Source: Rhodanobacter humi
Lineage (GTDB): Bacteria; Pseudomonadota; Gammaproteobacteria; Xanthomonadales; Rhodanobacteraceae
Direction: 5' to 3'
NCBI RefSeq assembly: GCF_041107455.1
Contig: NZ_JBGBPY010000001.1
Location: 2,790,001-2,854,000 of the forward strand
Length of the DNA stretch: 64,000 bases
Part shown: piece after piece, positions 19,208 through 61,377 of the stretch
How the letters are laid out: every line of letters starts with the position of its first letter
Position numbering within the stretch: position 1 is the first letter of the stretch
Position numbers and translations under genes: made by a program
The notes under the pieces: generated by a model
Database searches by the model: none
Told to the model about the DNA's origin: nothing
Seen by the model: the letters and a program-made list of their open reading frames with translations, nothing else

Positions 19208-20683
19208 ATGACTCCAGAAACCCAAACGCGCCGCACCAAGATCGTTGCCACCCTGGGCCCCGCCACCGACGCGCCGGGCATGCTCGAACGCATCATCGCC
19301 GACGGCGTCGACGTGGTTCGGCTCAATCTCTCGCACGGCTCGCCGGACGACCACCGCGCCCGCGCCGCCGCGGTGAAGGCCGCCGCCGCCGCCGCCGGCC
19401 GCGAGGTGGGCGTGCTGGCCGACCTGCAGGGTCCGAAGATCCGCGTGGAGAAGTTCGCGAACGGCCCGATCCAGCTCGAAGTCGGCCAGCCGTTCGTGCT
19501 GGATTGCCGCGTCGACGCCGCGCCCGGCGACATCCACCGCGTGGGCGTGAGCTACCTCGGCTTGCCGCAGGACGTGCGCCCCGGCGACGTGCTGCTGCTG
19601 GACGACGGCCTGGTGGCGCTCACCGTGAACGAAGTCGCGGGCACCGAGATCCGCTGCACGGTGCTGGTGGGCGGCAAGCTGTCCGACCGCAAGGGTCTCA
19701 ACCGCCAGGGCGGCGGCCTGTCTGTCTCCGCGCTGTCGGACAAGGACAAGGCCGACATCAAGCTCGCCGCCGAGATCGGCGCGGACTTCCTCGCGGTCTC
19801 CTTCGTGCGTTGCGCCGATGACATGCACCAGGCGCGCCGCCTGCTGCACGAGGCCGGCGGCAGCGCCGCGCTGGTGTCCAAGATCGAGCGCGCCGACGCG
19901 ATCCCCGTGCTGGGCGAGATCATCGACGCCTCCGACGTGGTGATGGTGGCGCGCGGCGACCTCGGCGTGGAGATCGGCGACGCCGAGCTGCCCGGCCTGC
20001 AGAAAAAGATCATCCGCGAGACCGTGCAGCGCAATCGCGCGGTGATCACCGCCACCCAGATGCTGCAGTCGATGGTGCGCTCGCCGATCCCCACCCGCGC
20101 CGAAGTGCTGGACGTGGCGAACGCGGTGATCGACGGCACCGACGCAGTGATGCTGTCCGAGGAAACCGCCGCCGGCGCCCACCCCGACAAGGCGGTGGCC
20201 GCGATGGCGCGCATCTGCCTCGGCGCCGAACGCCAGTTCGAGCCCAAGGAAGACCTCGCGAACGCCGGCCCCCGGCTCAGCCGTACCGACCAGGCGATCG
20301 CGCTGGCCGCGATGGTGCTGGCCGGCCAGCTCGGCGTGCGCGCGATCGTGGCGCTGACCGAATCCGGCGCCACCGCGCAATGGCTGTCGCGCTACCGCAG
20401 CGCGGTGCCCATCTACGGCCTGTCGCCGTTCGCCGCCTCGCGCCGACGCATGCAGGTGCTGCGTGACGTGCGGGCGGTGGAGTTCAGCCACGGCGAGAAC
20501 CAGAGCATGGCCTCCGCCACCCGCGCCGCGGTGCGCCTGCTGTTCGCGCAGGGCAAGCTGGTCGAGGGCGACAGCGTGGTCATCACCTATGGCGACCGCG
20601 TGGGCCACGTCGGCGGCACCAACACGCTGAAGCTGCTGGCGGTGGGTGCGGGCGGCGCGGTGGACAGCTTGCGCGATCTCTGA
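19208..20683 (+). CDS. pyk: Pyruvate kinase
   Basis: A 491-residue glycolytic enzyme making pyruvate and ATP from phosphoenolpyruvate and ADP. Motifs: RRTKIVATLGPA start, VRLNLSHGS, DLQGPKIRVEKF (barrel), the active-site SKIERADAI with its Lys, VMVARGDLGVEIG, and TATQMLQSM. Downstream are the A-domain end AVMLSEETAAGAHPDKAV and a complete C domain. A TATAGT -10-like hexamer at 19153-19158 lies 50 bases before the ATG. It is close to fba and tkt but separate from them. Confidence 0.97.
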   Translation: MTPETQTRRTKIVATLGPATDAPGMLERIIADGVDVVRLNLSHGSPDDHRARAAAVKAAAAAAGREVGVLADLQGPKIRVEKFANGPIQLEVGQPFVLDCRVDAAPGDIHRVGVSYLGLPQDVRPGDVLLLDDGLVALTVNEVAGTEIRCTVLVGGKLSDRKGLNRQGGGLSVSALSDKDKADIKLAAEIGADFLAVSFVRCADDMHQARRLLHEAGGSAALVSKIERADAIPVLGEIIDASDVVMVARGDLGVEIGDAELPGLQKKIIRETVQRNRAVITATQMLQSMVRSPIPTRAEVLDVANAVIDGTDAVMLSEETAAGAHPDKAVAAMARICLGAERQFEPKEDLANAGPRLSRTDQAIALAAMVLAGQLGVRAIVALTESGATAQWLSRYRSAVPIYGLSPFAASRRRMQVLRDVRAVEFSHGENQSMASATRAAVRLLFAQGKLVEGDSVVITYGDRVGHVGGTNTLKLLAVGAGGAVDSLRDL

Positions 20684-20767
20684 GCCGGAGCCATGGCCAC
20701 GACGACGCGGGCATGACGCCGCGCGGCTAGACTGGCGCCGTCGTCCCCTTCCACCGGAGAGCTCCCC

Positions 20768-21208
20768 ATGAACCCGCGCACCCGCCGCCTGATCCGTCCC
20801 GTGTTGCTGGTCTCGACTCTGGCCTGCGCCACGCCGGTGCTGGCGCAGGCGAACAAGGTCGATCCGCAGAACCTGTACCACTACTGGATCCGGCTCAACA
20901 CCAAGGTGAACGTCGACATGCCCAATTCGGGGCTGAACCTCACCAAGCCTGGATGCGTCGCGGTGACCTACGAGATCGGCTCCGATGGCGTGCCGATGCA
21001 TGTGCAGGTTGCCAAGGTGGAGCCCAAGAGCGACCTCGGCCCCGCCGCGGTGTCCGCGGTGAAGAACTTCCGCTACGGCCCCTCGCTGACCAACAAGATC
21101 GGCCAGCCGATCGCCACCTACTACATCGTGCCGTTCAATGCGCCCGACGACGCGGCGGGACAGCAGAAGGTGATGGAGCCTTGCAAACTGGCGGGCTACG
21201 GCCAGTAG
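20768..21208 (+). CDS. Periplasmic TonB C-terminal-like protein
   Basis: A 146-residue protein with a signal peptide (cleavage near TPVLAQA, residue 26) and a domain with the TonB C-terminal pattern: VAVTYEIGSDGVPMHVQVAKVEPKSDLGPAAVSAVKNFRYGP. There is no N-terminal anchor or proline-rich spacer, so it is not a working TonB by itself. The two cysteines (C59 and near the end) may form a disulfide. Stand-alone TonB-like domains of this type are common in Xanthomonadales and mostly uncharacterised. Confidence 0.75.
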   Translation: MNPRTRRLIRPVLLVSTLACATPVLAQANKVDPQNLYHYWIRLNTKVNVDMPNSGLNLTKPGCVAVTYEIGSDGVPMHVQVAKVEPKSDLGPAAVSAVKNFRYGPSLTNKIGQPIATYYIVPFNAPDDAAGQQKVMEPCKLAGYGQ

Positions 21209-21221
21209 GCGGGCATTTCGT

Positions 21222-21227
21222 TATAAT
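21222..21227 (+). promoter_or_regulatory. Candidate -10 element before fba
   Basis: TTATAATCT contains a perfect TATAAT in a GC-rich spacer, 83 bases upstream of the fba start. I see no good -35 at 16-18 bases; TTGCAA at 21181 is too far. The long leader ahead of fba would be about 75 bases. Confidence 0.5.
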
Positions 21228-21309
21228 CTGCGGCTTTAACCATGCCGCCCTCGTCCGGGGCGGCACCACCCTTGAGCGGGCCGGTATCGCCTCGCTGTAC
21301 GGAGCCGTC

Positions 21310-22314
21310 ATGAGTATTGAAGATCTCGAAAGCGTCGCCCTGGCCATGGTCGCCCCCGGCAAGGGCATCATCGCCATCGACGAGTCGACCAACACCATCA
21401 AGAAGCGTTTCGAGGCCGTCGGCATCGAGAACACCGAGGAGAACCGCCGCGCCTACCGCGAGCTGCTGCTCACCACGCCGGGCCTGAACGAGCACATCTC
21501 CGGCGCGATCCTGTACGACGAGACGATCCGCCAGTCCACCAGGGACGGCGTGCCGTTCACCCAGGTGATGAAGAAGGCCGGCATCATCCCCGGCATCAAG
21601 GTGGACAAGGGCCCGGTGGCGCTGGCCGGCTTCCCCGGCGACGTGGTGACCGAGGGCCTGGACGGCCTGCGTCCGCGCCTGGAGGAATACGCCAAGCTGG
21701 GCGCCCAGTTCTGCAAGTGGCGCGCGGTGATCAACATCTCCGAGGACAACCCCAGCTCCACCGCGATCGAGGCGAACTGCCACGCGCTGGCCCGCTACGC
21801 CGCGCTGTGCCAGGAAGCCGGCCTGGTGCCGATGGTCGAGCCGGAAGTGATCATGGACGGCGACCACAGCATCGAGGTCAGCTACGAAGTGCACGAGGCG
21901 GTGCTGCGCAGCCTGTTCAATGCGCTGTACGAGCAGAACGTGATGCTGGAAGGCACCATCCTGAAGGTCAGCATGGTGATCCCGGGCAAGGAATCCGACG
22001 AGCAGGCCGACGTCGAGGAAGTGGCCGAGGCCACCGTGCGCGTGCTGAAGACCACCGTGCCGGCCTCGCTGCCGGGCATCGTGTTCCTCTCCGGCGGCCA
22101 GACCGACGAGCAGAGCACCGCGCACCTCAACGCGATGAACCGCATCGGCCCGCATCCGTGGCCGCTGTCGTTCTCCTACGGTCGCGCCATGCAGCAGGCC
22201 GCGCTGAAGCTGTGGGCCAAGGACATGAAGGCCAACTACGCGGAGGCGCAGAAGACCGTGCATGCCCGCGCCAGGGACAACGGCCTTGCCGCGCTGGGGC
22301 GCTGGAACGGTTGA
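21310..22314 (+). CDS. fba: Fructose-bisphosphate aldolase, class I
   Basis: A 334-residue Schiff-base aldolase of the type found in animals and some bacteria. It shows APGKGIIAIDEST, GAILYDETIRQ, GIKVDKG, CKWRAVINI, VPMVEPEVIMDG and the Schiff-base lysine in LEGTILKVSMVIPG, then FLSGGQTDEQ. It needs no metal, unlike the class II enzyme usual in Gammaproteobacteria. ATG 21310 gives the family length; the longer in-frame opening upstream is not conserved. A terminator follows. Confidence 0.96.
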   Translation: MSIEDLESVALAMVAPGKGIIAIDESTNTIKKRFEAVGIENTEENRRAYRELLLTTPGLNEHISGAILYDETIRQSTRDGVPFTQVMKKAGIIPGIKVDKGPVALAGFPGDVVTEGLDGLRPRLEEYAKLGAQFCKWRAVINISEDNPSSTAIEANCHALARYAALCQEAGLVPMVEPEVIMDGDHSIEVSYEVHEAVLRSLFNALYEQNVMLEGTILKVSMVIPGKESDEQADVEEVAEATVRVLKTTVPASLPGIVFLSGGQTDEQSTAHLNAMNRIGPHPWPLSFSYGRAMQQAALKLWAKDMKANYAEAQKTVHARARDNGLAALGRWNG

Positions 22315-22320
22315 TTCTTC

Positions 22321-22338
22321 GCGGTCATCCGTGATCGC
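22321..22338. repeat. Short hairpin related to the two-hairpin 3' element
   Basis: GCGGTC-ATCCGT-GATCGC directly after the fba stop resembles the first hairpin (GCGATC-GTCCCT-GATCGC) of the elements at 37444 and 41825, with one G-T wobble. The relation is tentative. Confidence 0.4.
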
Positions 22339-22344
22339 GGATTG

Positions 22345-22380
22345 AAAAAGAACGGGCACCTCGCGGCGCCCGTTCTTTTT
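22345..22380. terminator. Bidirectional intrinsic terminator between fba and the barrel gene
   Basis: AAAAAGAACGGGC pairs with GCCCGTTCTTTTT around a CGGC-rich loop; T runs on both strands; convergent genes on each side. Confidence 0.92.
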
Positions 22381-22399
22381 GCCTCGATGGATCGTCGAA

Positions 22400-22993
22400 T
22401 CAGAAGCGGAATTCCGCGCTGGCCGAGATCATGTCGGTGCTGAGATCCACGCTGTTCTTCTTGGCGTCGAAGTAGTCGTAGTTCAGGCCGACGCTCACGT
22501 TCTGGTTGATGTTGTAGCCCACGCCCGCACCGGCGTACCAGCTGGTCTTGTCCAGGCTCTTGCGCACCGGGTTCACGTCGTTGTTCAGGCCGTGGCCGGT
22601 CCAGCTGTAGGCGCCCGCGCGGCCGCTCAGGTACCAGTTCGGGCTGAGGTCGAGATGGGCGTTCGCGCCGGCGGTCCAGCCGTGCAACTGGGACTTGCCC
22701 GGGGCGATCACCGGGGAGCTGTTGAAGACGTTCTTCGCGCGGATGTTGCCCAGGTCGTTGTAGCCCACCTCGGCACCCAGCGCGAAGTTCGGCGCCAGCG
22801 ACCAGCGGTAGCCGCCGTTCAGCGCGTAACCGGTGTCGTGGCCGTTGTACGGACCCTTGTCGATGGCGGTGCGGCCCACGTTGCCGTTGATGAACCAGCC
22901 GCCGTTGTCGCTCGGCGCGCTCTGTGCGAAGGCGGCGGGGATGGCCAGCATGCCGGCGGAGGCGAGAGCGAGGGCGATCAGAGTCTTTTTCAT
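22400..22993 (-). CDS. Outer-membrane beta-barrel protein, OmpA/OmpW-like small barrel (copy 1)
   Basis: A 197-residue protein: signal peptide (MKKTLIALALASAGMLAIPAAFA, cut near residue 23), then alternating amphipathic strands typical of an eight-stranded barrel (WFINGNVGRT, YALNGGYRW, FALGAEVGYNDLG, WYLSGRAGAYSW, WYAGAGVGYNINQNVSVGLNYDYFD). It ends ISASAEFRF, the C-terminal Phe signal for the BAM complex. No periplasmic peptidoglycan domain is present. It is a tandem paralogue of the next gene, with the same signal peptide pattern and a shared promoter element. The function is unknown beyond an outer-membrane role. Confidence 0.85.
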   Translation of the reverse strand: MKKTLIALALASAGMLAIPAAFAQSAPSDNGGWFINGNVGRTAIDKGPYNGHDTGYALNGGYRWSLAPNFALGAEVGYNDLGNIRAKNVFNSSPVIAPGKSQLHGWTAGANAHLDLSPNWYLSGRAGAYSWTGHGLNNDVNPVRKSLDKTSWYAGAGVGYNINQNVSVGLNYDYFDAKKNSVDLSTDMISASAEFRF

Positions 22994-23110
22994 GGAGAGT
23001 CTCCTGTTATTGGGAAGGCGGCTGCCGGCCATGGGGAAGGGAGCGGTGCCGCATGCCCGGCGTTGGGGAATCGCCGGACACGTCACTTGGATGGTTGCGG
23101 GGGCAGAAAG

Positions 23111-23149
23111 ATTCAATACTTGTTAGTTCATTATTAAGTAGCGATTAAT
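23111..23149 (-). promoter_or_regulatory. Conserved promoter element upstream of barrel gene copy 1
   Basis: ATTAAGTAGCGATTAAT (23133-23149) has palindromic ends ATTAA/TTAAT. ATTCAATA begins 22 bases away at 23111, and TAGTTCAT lies between. The same parts at the same spacing precede copy 2 (23962-24000), while the DNA around differs. Read on the minus strand, TATTGAAT could be a -10. Confidence 0.6.
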
Positions 23150-23235
23150 GTTTTCGGCCAAGTGACTGTATTGGAAAGAAAACGAGCGCCATGCGGCGCC
23201 CGTTCCTGCGTATCACGCGACGGAGTCGAGACGAC

Positions 23236-23847
23236 TCAGAAGCGGTATTCCGCGCTTAGCGAGTACTTGCTGGTGGCCAGCTGCACACGCTGCTCGCCGT
23301 TGCCGGAACCGGCGTAGTAGTCGTAGTTCACGCCCAGACTCCAGTTCTGGCTGAGGTTGTAGCCCACGCCGGCGCCCGCGTAGTACTTGGTGCGGTTGTA
23401 CTGGCGGAACTCCGGGTTCGCCCCGTTGGTGATGCCTTCGGCCTGGGCGTAGAACAGGCCGCCGCGCAGCTCGCCGTACCAGTTGGGGTTGAAGCTGTAG
23501 CGCAGGTCCACGCCGGCGGTGCTGCCGCGCAGCTTGGATTTGCTGTTGCCGGCGATCTGGTCGGCGTACTGGTTCTGGGCGGACAGGCGGCCCAGCCACT
23601 GGTAGCCCACTTCCACGCCCAGCGAGGTCTCGGGGTTGATCGCGAAGCGGTAGCCGCCCTTCACGCCGCCGGCGAACTTGCCGTCGTCATAGGGACCCTT
23701 GCTGACGTTGGCGTAGCCGGCGTCGGCGCTGACGTACCAGCCCTGCTGGGCGTTGGTGGCGGCCGGAGCCTGGTCCTGGGCGAAGGCGGTCGGCACGGCC
23801 ACGAAGCCGGCGGCAGCCAGGGTGAGAGCGAGCACAGTCTTTTTCAT
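23236..23847 (-). CDS. Outer-membrane beta-barrel protein, OmpA/OmpW-like small barrel (copy 2)
   Basis: A 203-residue paralogue of the barrel at 22400-22993. Signal peptide MKKTVLALTLAAAGFVAVPTAFA; strands such as GWYVSADAGYANV, GVKGGYRFAI, SLGVEVGYQWLG, WYGELRGGLFYAQ and YYAGAGVGYNLSQNWSLGVNYDYYA; terminal SLSAEYRF for BAM recognition. The two copies agree best in strands and periplasmic turns and differ in the predicted outer loops (for example KSKLRGST against KSQLHGWT regions), as after duplication with surface diversification. They are likely co-regulated. Confidence 0.85.
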   Translation of the reverse strand: MKKTVLALTLAAAGFVAVPTAFAQDQAPAATNAQQGWYVSADAGYANVSKGPYDDGKFAGGVKGGYRFAINPETSLGVEVGYQWLGRLSAQNQYADQIAGNSKSKLRGSTAGVDLRYSFNPNWYGELRGGLFYAQAEGITNGANPEFRQYNRTKYYAGAGVGYNLSQNWSLGVNYDYYAGSGNGEQRVQLATSKYSLSAEYRF

Positions 23848-23961
23848 GGGGATTTCCTCTTGTTCTGGTCAGTCCGCGGCGCCTTGGGGAAAGGCAATGC
23901 CGCGGCTCGGCAACCGCTCGTGGGCGGTGCCGGGGCATTAGATGGCGAACCGGCTGAAGGA

Positions 23962-24000
23962 ATTCAATACCGACAAGTTCAGAATTAAGTGCAGGTTAAT
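23962..24000 (-). promoter_or_regulatory. Conserved promoter element upstream of barrel gene copy 2
   Basis: ATTAAGTGCAGGTTAAT (23984-24000), with ATTCAATA starting at 23962, is the counterpart of the element at 23111-23149 with exactly the same 22-base offset. On the minus strand a TTGACAT sequence overlaps the outer end (24004 to 23998). Confidence 0.6.
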
Positions 24001-24103
24001 GTCAAGACGCAGGCCGGGATCGTCCGCGATGGCGGCGCGACAGCCTCGGGCGGATCGGCGACAATGCGTGTTTTTCGCCGCCGCCTACCCCCGGAGAACG
24101 CCG

Positions 24104-26104
24104 ATGCCCACCCGCCGCCAACTTGCCAACGCCGTGCGTGCCCTCGCCATGGACGCCGTGCAGAAGGCCAATTCCGGCCATCCGGGCATGCCGATGGGGA
24201 TGGCCGACATCGCCGAGGTGCTGTGGAACGACTTCCACCGCCACAACCCGGCCAATCCACACTGGTTCAACCGCGACCGCTTCCTGCTCTCCAATGGCCA
24301 CGGCTCGATGCTGCAGTACGCGGTGCTGCACCTGTCCGGCTACGACTTGCCGATGAGCGAGCTGGAGCGTTTCCGCCAGCTGCATTCCAAGACCCCGGGC
24401 CACCCCGAGGCGCGCGACACGGTGGGCGTGGAAACCACCACCGGCCCGCTGGGCCAGGGCATCGCCAACGGCGTCGGCTTCGCGCTGGCGGAGAAGGTGC
24501 TGGGCGAGCGCTTCAACCGTCCCGGTTTTGCCGTGGTCGACCACCACACCTGGGTGTTCTGCGGCGACGGCTGCCTGATGGAAGGCATCTCGCAGGAGGC
24601 GATCTCGCTGGCCGGTACTTGGAAGCTGGGCAAGCTCACCCTGATCTACGACGACAACAACATCTCCATCGACGGCGAAGTGCCGGGCTGGTTCACCGAC
24701 GACACCGCGGGCCGCTTCGAGGCCTGCGGCTGGCACGTGGTGCGCGACGTGGACGGCCATGACGCCGAGAAGGTCAAGGCCGCGCTGGCCGCCGCCAAGG
24801 CGGAGACCGGCAAGCCCAGCCTGGTGATGTGCAAGACCATCATCGGCTTCGGCGCACCGCACAAGGAAGGCACCGAGGCCAGCCACGGCGCGGCGCTGGG
24901 CAAGGACGAGGTCGCCGCCGCGCGCGACATGCTGGATTGGCGCTATGCCCCGTTCGAGATCCCCGCCGAAATCTACGCCGGCTGGGACGCGAAGCCGGCC
25001 GGCGCGAAGCACGAGGCGGAATGGAACGCGCTGTTCGCCGACTATGCCAAGGCGCACCCGGAGCTGGCCGCCGAGCTGGAGCGCCGTCTCGCCGCGAAGC
25101 TGCCGGCGAACTGGGCGGCCGAATCGCAGGCCTGGGTCGAGAAGCTGCAGGCCGAGGGCCCGGACGTGGCCAGCCGCAAAGCCTCGCAGATGACCTTGAA
25201 CGCGTTCGGCCCGCTGCTGCCGGAACTGGTCGGCGGCTCGGCGGATCTTGCCGGTTCCAACCTCACGATCTGGAAGGGCTCGGTCAGCGTCACCGAGGCC
25301 AGCCCGGACGCGAACTACATGCACTACGGCGTGCGCGAGTTCGGCATGACCGCGATCGGCACCGGCGTGGCGCTGCACGGTGGCTTCATCCCCTACGACG
25401 CCACCTTCCTGGTGTTCTCCGACTACGCGCGCAACGCGGTGCGCATGAGTGCGCTGATCCCCGCGCACTCCATCCACGTCTACACCCACGACTCGATCGG
25501 CCTGGGCGAGGACGGTCCCACCCACCAGCCGGTGGAGCACCTGGCCAGCCTGCGCTACATCCCGAACAACCGCGTGTGGCGCCCCTGCGACGCGGTGGAA
25601 TCGGCAGTGGCGTGGAAGGTGGCGATCGAGCGCCGTGACGGTCCCTCCTGCCTGGTGTTCTCGCGCCAGACGCTGAAGCACCAGCAGCGCAACGCGCAGC
25701 AGCTGGCCGACATCGCGCGCGGCGCCTACGTGCTGTCCGACCCGGCCGACACGAAGTTCAAGGCCATCCTGATCGCCACCGGCTCCGAGGTGGAGCTGGC
25801 GATGGAAGCGATGCGCACGCTGGCCCAGCAAGGCGTGCCGGTGCGCGTGGTGTCGATGCCGTGCAACGAGACCTTCGATGCCCAGCCCGTGGAGTACCGC
25901 GAGGGCGTGCTGCCCGGCTGGTGCCGCGCGCGCGTGGCGGTGGAGGCGGGCATCGCCGACTTCTGGCGCAAGTACGTGGGCCTGGACGGCGAAGTGATCG
26001 GCATGACCACGTTCGGCGCCTCGGCGCCGGCCGAGCAACTGTTCGACTACTTCGGCTTCACCGTGGCGAACGTGGTCGATGCGGTGAAGCGCGTCGCCGG
26101 TTGA
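24104..26104 (+). CDS. tkt: Transketolase
   Basis: A 666-residue thiamine-diphosphate enzyme transferring two-carbon units in the pentose-phosphate pathway. Motifs: [42 protein letters not shown], the ThDP/metal motif [13 protein letters not shown] to [10 protein letters not shown], and in the pyrimidine domain [17 protein letters not shown] and [18 protein letters not shown]. The C-terminal domain is complete. ATG 24104 has GGAGA nine bases upstream; a longer in-frame opening to 23942 runs back through the barrel promoter and is rejected. Confidence 0.97.
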
Positions 26105-26123
26105 TTGATGCTTTCCCCAAACG

Positions 26124-26152
26124 AAAACGCCGCGGCATTCCCGCGGCGTTTT
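26124..26152. terminator. Bidirectional intrinsic terminator between tkt and gph
   Basis: AAAACGCCGCGG-CATTC-CCGCGGCGTTTT is a perfect stem flanked by A and T runs, between convergent genes. Confidence 0.92.
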
Positions 26153-26168
26153 GTTTGGCGCGAACGTG

Positions 26169-26801
26169 TCACGCCGCCAGCAGATCCACGAGATGCGCCG
26201 GATCGCTGGCCAGCGCCTGCGCGCCGGCTTGCTGCAGTTCCTCGCGGCTGCCGAAACCCCACAGCACGCCGATGCCGCGCACGCGGTTGGCCACCGCGCC
26301 CTCGATGTCATAGCGGCGGTCGCCGATCATCGCGGCCGCTTCGGGCGCCGTGCCGAAGTCGGTCAGCGCGTCGGCGATCATCGTGGCCTTCTCGCAATGC
26401 GCGCTGTCCGGATCCGGGCCGTACAGTTTCTCGAACGCGGAACCGAACGGCAGCGCTGCCAGGATCGGCGCGGCATGCCGCACCGGCTTGCTGGTGACCA
26501 CGGCGAGGCGATGGCCGGCAGCCTGCAGGCGCTCGATCGCCGCCGCCACGCCGGGATAGACCGCGTGCTCGCGCCAGCCCAGCACGGCGAAGCGTTCGTG
26601 GTAGTAGTCCACCGCGGCTTCGACGCGCACGGCGTCATGGCCGAGCAACGGCGCGAAGCTGTGCCGCAGCGGCGGGCCGATCCACGGCCGCAGGTCGGCC
26701 GGCGCCGGCACGCCGAGCTTGTCGAACGCGTGCCGGATGCAGGCGGTGATGCCCGGTTCGGAATCGATCAGGGTGCCGTCGAGGTCGAACAGGCAGAGCA
26801 T
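26169..26801 (-). CDS. gph: HAD-family phosphatase, phosphoglycolate phosphatase type
   Basis: A 210-residue haloacid-dehalogenase hydrolase. Motif I FDLDGTLIDSEPGI, a helical cap (about residues 16-80), motif II VVTSKP, the lysine of motif III in CEKATMI and motif IV MIGDRRYDIEGA. This is the Gph/PpaX-like layout that hydrolyses 2-phosphoglycolate or similar small phosphates. The ATG shares its A with the pgk stop (TAATG), so it is translationally coupled with pgk. The exact substrate cannot be read from the sequence. Confidence 0.85.
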   Translation of the reverse strand: MLCLFDLDGTLIDSEPGITACIRHAFDKLGVPAPADLRPWIGPPLRHSFAPLLGHDAVRVEAAVDYYHERFAVLGWREHAVYPGVAAAIERLQAAGHRLAVVTSKPVRHAAPILAALPFGSAFEKLYGPDPDSAHCEKATMIADALTDFGTAPEAAAMIGDRRYDIEGAVANRVRGIGVLWGFGSREELQQAGAQALASDPAHLVDLLAA

Positions 26802-27982
26802 TACTTCGCCGCCCGCGCCTTGAGCGCGGCCACCGCGGGCAGTTCCTTGCCTTCGAGGAATTCCAGGAACGCGCCGCCACCGGTGGAGATGTAGGAAACC
26901 TTGTCCGCGATGCCGTACTTGTCCACCGCGGCCAGCGTGTCGCCGCCGCCGGCGATCGAGAACGCGGGCGAGGCGGCGATCGCGCGCGCCAGCGTCTCGG
27001 TGCCCTTGCCGAAGGCGTCGAACTCGAACACGCCGACCGGGCCGTTCCACACCACGGTGCCGGCCTTCGCGATCAGCTCGGCGTACTGCTTCGCCGTCTC
27101 GGGGCCGATGTCGAGGATCATCTCGTCGTCCTGCACCGCGTCCACGGCCTTCACCGTGGCCGGTGCGTTGGCGGAGAACGCCGGCGCCACCACCACGTCG
27201 ACCGGCAGCGGCACTTCGGCGCCGCGGCGCTTCGCGTCGGCGAGCACTTTCTTCGCGGCGTCGATCAGGTCGGGCTCGACCAGCGAATTGCCCACCGAAT
27301 GGCCCAGCGCGGCGATGAAGGTGTTGGCGATGCCGCCACCCACGATCAGCTGGTCCACCTTGCCGATCAGGTTGTCCAGCAGGGTCAGCTTGGTGGAGAC
27401 CTTGGAGCCGGCCACGATCGCCAGCAGCGGGTGCGCCGGGTGTTCCAGCGCCTTGCCCAGCGCGTCCAGTTCGGCGCACAGCAGCGGGCCGGCGGCGGCG
27501 ATCGGCGCGAACCTGATCACGCCGTGCGTGGAGGCCTGGGCGCGATGCGCGGTGCCGAAGGCGTCCATCACGAAGATGTCGCACAGCGCGGCGTACTTCT
27601 TCGACAAGGCCTCGTCGTCCTTGCCTTCGCCCACGTTCATGCGGCAGTTCTCCAGCACCACCACCTCGCCGTCGGCCACGTCCACGCCGTCGAGATAGTC
27701 GCGCAGCAGGCGCACCGGCTTGCCGAGTTTGTCGCCCAGCCAGGCCGCCACCGGCGCCAGCGAGGAGGCCTCGTCGAACTGGCCTTCCTTGGGACGGCCG
27801 AGATGCGAGAGCACCATCACCTTCGCGCCGGCGTCGCGTGCGGCCTTGATCGTGGGCAGGGCGGCGTCGAGGCGCTGGGTGGAGGTGATCCGGCCGTGGT
27901 CGTCGATCGGCACGTTCAGGTCTTCGCGGATCAGCACGCGCTGGCCGTGGAGGTCGAGGTCGCTCATGCGCAGGACGGTCAC
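26801..27982 (-). CDS. pgk: Phosphoglycerate kinase
   Basis: A 393-residue glycolytic kinase transferring phosphate from 1,3-bisphosphoglycerate to [15 protein letters not shown] and [10 protein letters not shown] form the substrate site, [13 protein letters not shown] and [14 protein letters not shown] follow, and the nucleotide side has [20 protein letters not shown] and the glycine loop [10 protein letters not shown]. The length is normal. MTVLRMSD at 27982 or the second ATG at 27967 could be the start. It is in an operon with gph. Confidence 0.97.
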
Positions 27983-60132: not shown

Positions 60133-61377
60133 ATGTTTTTTGTTAACGAGCCTGCCCACGATTACAACGACCCATGGGCCATTCCATTCGAGCGCCGTTT
60201 TCGCGACTTCTGTGCGGGGCGCCGTCGCGTCGCCTATTTTTACGAGCGGCCCGACACGAGCACTTTCCGATATCGCGTATACAACATGATTCAAGTCCTG
60301 CGAACGTTGGGATCCGATGTCGGGGTCAGCTTCTTCTGGAATGATGACTGGCGCGAAATGAATCGCGTTGTGGACCAGGCCGACGTAATCGTGATTTGTC
60401 GTGCGCGCTACAACGATCACATCAACAAGATGATCACGCGGGCGAAGGCACAGGGAAAGCGCGTAATTTTCGACGTGGACGATCTGGTATTCAATACGGA
60501 CTATGCCCACTTGATTCTTCGGTCCCTGGACCAGGACATCAGTGCCAACGAGGCCTGGGATCACTGGTTTGGCTATATCGGACGAATCGGGGCGACGTTC
60601 AGGATGTGTGATGCGGCCATCACCACCAATGCGTATCTCGCTCGCCGACTCGAGGAGTTTTCTGCGGTGCCCGTCAGCGTGATTCCGAATTTTCTGAACC
60701 AGGAACAGCTGGCGATCAGTGATCGCATCTACAACGAAAAGATGGTAAGCGGATTCAGGCGGACCGACGAAATTCATATTGGCTACTTCAGCGGTACGCC
60801 CACGCACAACCGCGACTTTTCCATGGTGGCGCGATCCATTGCCTCGATCATGCGTGCCGATAAGCGGGTGAAGCTGTTAGTTGTCGGTTTCCTCGAGTTG
60901 AAACGGGGTCTGGAGGAATTCGCCGACCGTATTACTTTTTATCCATTGCATGATTTCATCAACCTGCAGCGCATCATGTCACTGGTTGAAGTCAACATCG
61001 TCCCCTTGTTGGACAACGGCTTTACCAACTGCAAGTCGGAGCTGAAATATTTTGAGGCGGCGGCGGTCGGCACTCTTACTGTTGCCACACCTATTTTCAG
61101 TTATGCGACTGCCATCAGAGATGGTGAAAATGGGTATTTGGCGAACAGTACGGACTGGACAAGGCAGATCGTCAGGGCGATCGATCAACTGGACCAATAT
61201 CCCCAGATGGCAGCAGCTGCCCATGAGCATTCGATGGCTCAGTATGGGTGGCAGAACCAATTCGAACGAATCGAAAGCGCCGTCTTTGGAGCAGCTTCGG
61301 CTCAGCTGTTGATGCCTCGCCAGAGCAACAGTGAGTTTGAAGACAGTTTCCTGTCGCAAGTAGCCAAAGCTCGATAG
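60133..61377 (+). CDS. Glycosyltransferase, GT-B fold, family 4-like
   Basis: A 414-residue glycosyltransferase. RVAYFYERPDTSTFRYRVYNM near the start, KRVIFDVDDLVF, HIGYFSGTPTHNRDF at the start of the C-terminal domain, VNIVPLLDNGFTNCKSELKYFEAAAVGTLTVATP (the GT4 EX7E-like region; ELKYFEAAA) and YGWQNQFERIE. It follows the WsaF-like gene after seven bases. The donor sugar cannot be read from the sequence. Confidence 0.85.
   Translation: MFFVNEPAHDYNDPWAIPFERRFRDFCAGRRRVAYFYERPDTSTFRYRVYNMIQVLRTLGSDVGVSFFWNDDWREMNRVVDQADVIVICRARYNDHINKMITRAKAQGKRVIFDVDDLVFNTDYAHLILRSLDQDISANEAWDHWFGYIGRIGATFRMCDAAITTNAYLARRLEEFSAVPVSVIPNFLNQEQLAISDRIYNEKMVSGFRRTDEIHIGYFSGTPTHNRDFSMVARSIASIMRADKRVKLLVVGFLELKRGLEEFADRITFYPLHDFINLQRIMSLVEVNIVPLLDNGFTNCKSELKYFEAAAVGTLTVATPIFSYATAIRDGENGYLANSTDWTRQIVRAIDQLDQYPQMAAAAHEHSMAQYGWQNQFERIESAVFGAASAQLLMPRQSNSEFEDSFLSQVAKAR

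Follow-up and report, generated by a model that had tools for sequence, protein, structure and literature searches.

Two adjacent genes for OmpA-like outer-membrane barrels in Rhodanobacter humi are each preceded by a copy of the same composite regulatory element. According to our best reading, to which we give a probability of about 0.5, this element consists of a promoter of the sigma32 type and, in class-I position, a tandem site at which an OmpR-family (PmrA-box-like) regulator would bind, and it is dedicated to OmpA-type eight-stranded barrels. The regulatory module as such is real and well conserved; its parts are ordinary, and their combination and exclusivity are unusual. The whole stretch of DNA analysed here (64,000 nucleotides) is referred to as the window, and the features of the barrel pair are listed in Table 1.

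Table 1. Positions in the window of the two barrel genes, their predicted leaders and the parts of the upstream element
Feature	Position	Strand	Basis or remark
Barrel gene copy B, 197 aa, OmpA-TM-like eight-stranded barrel	22400..22993	-	PF13505, E 6.9e-19
Predicted 5' leader of copy B, hairpins	22994..23085	-	Folding; the identical protein of L003 stands for copy B in the set of 69
Putative -10 core, copy B: ATCCAA, preceded by CC	23087..23092	-	Family consensus CCCCATCTAA
Putative -35, copy B: TTGAAT	23111..23116	-	Within ATTCAATA
TGAACT box, copy B	23125..23130	-	Family form TGWACT
Direct repeat TTAAT-N6-TTAAT, copy B	23133..23149	-	Candidate tandem response-regulator site
Barrel gene copy A, 203 aa	23236..23847	-	Profile search, structure model
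Predicted 5' leader of copy A, two predicted hairpins	23848..23936	-	Folding
Putative -10 core, copy A: ATCTAA, preceded by GCC	23938..23943	-	
Putative -35, copy A: TTGAAT	23962..23967	-	
TGAACT box, copy A	23976..23981	-	
Direct repeat TTAAC-N6-TTAAT, copy A	23984..24000	-	Intergenic region common with divergent transketolase-like gene

A previous sequence-only reading had placed ATTAA-N7-TTAAT and ATTCAATA upstream of both copies at the same 22-base offset, and a motif search of the window bore this out. Within the window, ATTAA-N7-TTAAT is confined to 23133-23149 and 23984-24000 (0 sites expected), and ATTCAATA starts exactly 22 bases before each of them, at 23111 and 23962; a third copy of ATTCAATA at 60489 is unrelated. 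The genome-wide search for the paired motif, which had been proposed as a check, returned a single pair of sites: in the 4,146,847-base genome, ATTAA-N7-TTAAT was found twice, both times upstream of the barrel pair (reversed control, 0), and the full composite element with up to three mismatches matched only at the two barrel genes. When the pattern was loosened to TTAA-N7-TTAA, five genome sites were found versus four for the reversed control. Besides the two of interest, these were located near what we read as a TonB-receptor-like gene, an SPFH-like reading frame and a tyrosyl-tRNA-synthetase-like gene. A global regulon was unsupported at the stringency used, with two exact boxes in the genome. 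The flanks of the two copies differ, as had also been noticed: the upstream regions of copies A and B are identical at 28 of 39 positions inside the element, whereas in the three 50-base blocks that precede it 12/50, 13/50 and 15/50 positions agree. With regard to ATTCAATA, its presence at both copies was correctly described, but its role as a separate partner site needs revision. Since both barrel genes lie on the minus strand, the module is to be read on that strand, where ATTCAATA becomes TATTGAAT and contains the likely -35. The module also explains both motifs as probable parts of a promoter.

The proteins encoded by copies A and B are 41% identical, and both exceed the Pfam cut-offs for OMP_b-brl (PF13505) and OmpA_membrane (PF01389). 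A structure model based on 43 family members has eight strands with a mean pLDDT of 84; the OmpA transmembrane domain, which shares the eight-stranded architecture with the OmpX, NspA and Ail barrels, provided its best PDB matches. Both proteins stop where the barrel ends, and their scores against the OmpA equivalog NF008071 (31.9 and 49.7 bits) are far below the cut-off of 277; the products are thus modelled as OmpA-like eight-stranded barrels without a periplasmic domain. Set against these known barrels, they lack the periplasmic peptidoglycan-binding domain, and their genes form tandem paralogues. Named near relatives belong to Rhodanobacter species.

The upstream regions could be alike merely through copying in a recent duplication, which would agree with the tandem arrangement of the two genes. 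However, the low identity of the proteins and the diverged flanks argue against it, as does the phylogeny. In a tree of 124 proteins, A-type and B-type sequences were split by a branch with 100/99 support, and each side held several genera, so the split is older than many genera. For the Rhodanobacter rows, it was recovered in 100% of 200 bootstrap trees; the tree program warned of long-branch joins at some outlying rows. Such a deep and supported split across genera excludes recent copying, to which we assign practically no chance, and simple recent duplication, the objection that the sequence-only reading had raised against itself, fails on the same ground. On the basis of sequence comparison, the two genes are ancient tandem paralogues, each with its own copy of the module. 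The element was present in 30 of 31 A-side rows and in 35 of the 48 that belong to the core B clade (support 80/83). The proposal of purifying selection on a shared regulator or a special promoter is supported by this retention in both clades over many genera, together with rigid spacing and unconserved flanks.

Barrel homologues could be identified in 114 of the 117 family genomes searched, frequently as two or three consecutive genes. We read 95 loci holding 164 barrel genes, and 69 distinct barrel proteins whose genes have the 38-base element with no more than two mismatches formed the main promoter set. The gene-strand consensus (n=69) is mTTAAY-N5-CTTAAT-Am-TGWACT-N5-GGTATTGAAW, which sits 108-127 bases upstream of the start codon, and the 60 bp upstream of it are essentially unconserved. 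Because this set was picked by pattern, its column conservation is partly selected by the search, and the test was redone using half of the element as an anchor. TTAAY-N6-TTAAT was present in 103 of 154 distinct barrel genes; among these, TTGAA was found exactly at position 33 in 75 and anywhere in positions 20-60 in 76. With the reverse anchor GT[A/G]TTGAA, TTAA occupied both half-site positions in 65 of 74 cases (next commonest offset, 4 cases). A search of the 117 genomes for the repeat plus TTGAA at fixed spacing, which like the half-element anchoring escapes the objection of pattern selection, yielded 67 matches, spread over 51 genomes and 13 of 26 genera, whereas the reversed control pattern had no match. 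All 67 matches were located 97-127 bp 5' of a barrel-family start, which also backs the special-promoter interpretation. It appears from these matches that related species keep the module almost only for barrel genes.

The repeat had been described as a 17-bp palindrome, an impression created by the self-complementary TTAA core. The gene strand shows TTAAY-N6-TTAAT, head-to-tail. At the two flanking positions that discriminate between the two arrangements, the 69 promoters agreed with a direct reading in 57 of 138 cases versus 27 of 138 for the palindromic (head-to-head) one, which we reject; a direct repeat seems the better description. Two half-sites in direct repeat one helical turn apart, as expected of a tandem site, are present here with a period of 11 bp, and the PmrA box has the same period. 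In addition, head-to-tail CTTAAT-type half-sites, which are described for the enterobacterial PmrA (BasR) box (PMC3973317), also occur in the barrel module. By analogy, the repeat resembles a site at which a dimer of an OmpR-family (PmrA-box-like) regulator would bind in tandem. Unlike the PmrA box, it precedes one barrel family only and is centred at about -60 of a predicted sigma32-type promoter.

The genome of the window contains 19 Trans_reg_C genes (OmpR-family C-terminal domain). A search for an autoregulated gene among them found none, with no box of up to two mismatches in the 3-kb locus of any of the 19. For one of them, which we take to be VgrR-like, co-occurrence is uninformative: all 117 genomes carry it, those that lack the repeat among them, so its presence does not track the element. 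In the window itself, a response regulator, presumably PhoP-like, is located at 885-1108 on the minus strand, and downstream of it lies what looks like a sensor kinase. By our reading of its sequence, the VgrR-like protein has both histidines that the Klebsiella PmrA paper proposes as specificity determinants (PMC3973317). The VgrR motif appears in figure form in PMC5231390.

Downstream of the repeat, the conserved core is TTGAAW-N13/14-CCCCATCTAA. The -35 columns (n=69) show TTG in 69, A in 66, A in 68 and then A in 22 or T in 47. For the -10 region, 67 of the 69 promoters were aligned (two were dropped for poor match) at spacing 13/14, giving C in 46, 46, 54 and 45, followed by A in 64, T in 67 and T in 62; thus, the CCCC positions are occupied in 45-54 and those of ATCTAA in 59-67 of 67. 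At the family level, both a -35 of the TTGAAA type and a -10 CCCCATNT at 12-15 bp could be observed, in line with the published sigma32 consensus TTGAAA plus CCCCATWT (PMC6687850). The mean match to TTGAAA-N12-15-CCCCATNTA was 0.84 both for the 69 barrel promoters and for 14 groES promoters, versus 0.54-0.55 for shuffled sequences. The groES yardstick came from close relatives: 16 of 30 loci were chosen, and two that were too short were dropped. The use of htpG as a second sigma32 yardstick revealed no clear site in most Rhodanobacter loci. In the window, the two -10 regions (GCCATCTAAT and ACCATCCAAG) have only CC before AT and no full CCCC, and an exact TTGAA-N13-16-CCCATNTA had no site in its genome. 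Based on the family-level sequences, the core looks like a heat-shock-type sigma32 (RpoH) promoter. It differs from a usual one in serving an outer-membrane barrel, in having an extra tandem site upstream and in a -10 that continues as ATCTAA. The groES gene of this genome has a sigma32-type promoter and a nearer sigma70-type promoter overlapping a GCACTC..GAGTGC inverted repeat, which we assume to be CIRCE.

Other sigma factors could use this core. A housekeeping sigma70 promoter with an unusual -10, in which the repeat and the TGWACT box are activator sites that offset a poor core, is rather unlikely. In its favour, TTGAAW is acceptable as a -35, the spacer to ATCTAA differs by a single base (17 or 18 bases in 68 of 69 promoters), and activator-dependent promoters often have weak -10s. 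Nevertheless, no frame of the conserved core supplies both the -11A and the -7T of TATAAT, the match to the sigma70 model is 0.61 versus 0.53 for shuffled sequences, and TAGAAT, which looks normal, is seen in the second groES promoter of these genomes. A sigmaE or other ECF-type promoter, with TCTAA as the -10 and TTGAAWC as a diverged envelope-stress -35, appears quite improbable. Its model scores 0.77 versus 0.56 for shuffled sequences, TCTAA is strongly conserved and outer-membrane genes would suit envelope stress, but AAC, the hallmark of ECF -35 elements, stands at the -35 place in none of the 69 promoters, position 38 being A or T. Moreover, groES of the same genera shares TTGAAA and CCCC and yet misfits the sigmaE model (0.58, as shuffled).

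It is also conceivable, if unlikely, that a repressor uses the repeat as its operator or that a protein other than a response regulator binds there. Many repressors bind near promoters, and no cognate regulator emerged among the 19 Trans_reg_C genes. On the other hand, a fixed spacing of 32 bp separates the upstream repeat from the -35, and such a position with an 11-bp direct-repeat period is typical of OmpR-family activators; activation rather than repression is the reading that we favour.

In the sigma32-type, class-I mechanism that we favour, a dimer of an OmpR-family response regulator would bind the two TTAAY/TTAAT half-sites, and the TGWACT box lies 5 bp before GGTATTGAAW. Transcription is predicted to start about 66-70 bases into the element, which would centre the repeat near -60; class-I activators sit at about this position. 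The phosphorylated regulator would then recruit sigma32 polymerase to the core promoter of the barrel genes, and such recruitment might couple barrel synthesis to envelope or temperature state. The resulting mRNA would have a leader of 80-100 nt, likely with a hairpin at its start, as on ompA mRNA. Computation shows the conservation, spacing and gene specificity of the module, the age of the duplication, the predicted barrel fold and the folding bias of the leader; the use of sigma32, binding by a response regulator, the sign of regulation and mRNA stabilisation are inferred.

Predicted leaders, measured from just after the -10 to the start codon, are 82-101 nt long. In minimum-energy folds, a hairpin of at least 6 bp within 12 nt of the 5' end was found in 65 of 69 leaders versus 20.9 expected from dinucleotide shuffles, and in a control segment upstream of the element it was found in 25 versus 23.4 expected. 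The leader probably begins with a hairpin. RNAalifold revealed no covariation in two leader alignments, and an ungapped cross-pairing test on the leaders was near null. A fixed-cut chimera test used four cuts, and the native partner was favoured in 45 of 69 leaders at three of them and in 43 at the fourth; an adaptive version favoured it in 64 of 66 but is biased by construction. A search of Rfam gave no match above the gathering threshold and one sub-threshold hit to L20_leader (E 0.068). According to a review, a 5'-terminal stem-loop in the 5' UTR of E. coli ompA stabilises the mRNA, and the barrel mRNA likewise has a predicted 5'-terminal stem-loop. However, the leader sequence is unrelated to that of ompA. 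As covariation is weak, we offer an ompA-like mRNA stabiliser as a lead.

It is possible, albeit doubtful, that the module represents a dedicated, almost single-purpose family-wide regulon in which one response regulator, acting at one strictly spaced tandem site, switches on an RpoH-type promoter for one class of outer-membrane barrel. If this is true, a surface protein would be under a built-in AND gate that joins an envelope signal to the heat-shock sigma factor and that persisted across genera while the surrounding DNA turned over. As a natural reporter, a family-wide module confined to the genes of one barrel family is unusually clean. It should help to fish out the specific regulator and to find out whether the composition of the outer membrane in Rhodanobacter and its relatives is under the joint control of a heat-shock sigma factor and a two-component system. 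No description of the module was found in open-licence literature.

Beyond the family, the core pattern was rejected as a marker, its 17 bases being too short for specificity. Among the matches listed in other families of the order, 30 were fetched, and 26 loci with the 17-base core had no homologous barrel (tblastn, 1e-3). A plasmid search gave no match. In distant genera (L083, L084, L087-L090, L093 and L095), the repeat is absent and ACY-N5-GTATTGAAA is kept, in several followed by CCCAT or CCCCA; 34 genes of distant genera were tabulated, of which some keep ACY-N5-GTATTGAAA with CCCAT and some do not fit. The fact that distant genera without the repeat keep the core suggests that the core promoter is older than the repeat. 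In one genus, g6 (L036, L040, L047, L052, L053 and L055), CTTAAC-N5-AATTAC consistently replaces the box, and the core mostly reads GCGCATTGAAT, a pattern that would fit a shift in the specificity of the binding protein. Paralogues of about 210-250 aa that adjoin the barrels (L012, L045, L069, L072, L075, L076 and others) keep TTAAY-N6-TTAAT, and their core differs; in many cases the spacer contains CTTCAG and the -10 reads TCTAAT or TTCAATG. Finally, the barrel pair of the window lies within a cluster of reading frames (19208-27982) that, as read from the ORFs, resemble pyruvate kinase, class I fructose-bisphosphate aldolase, transketolase and phosphoglycerate kinase.
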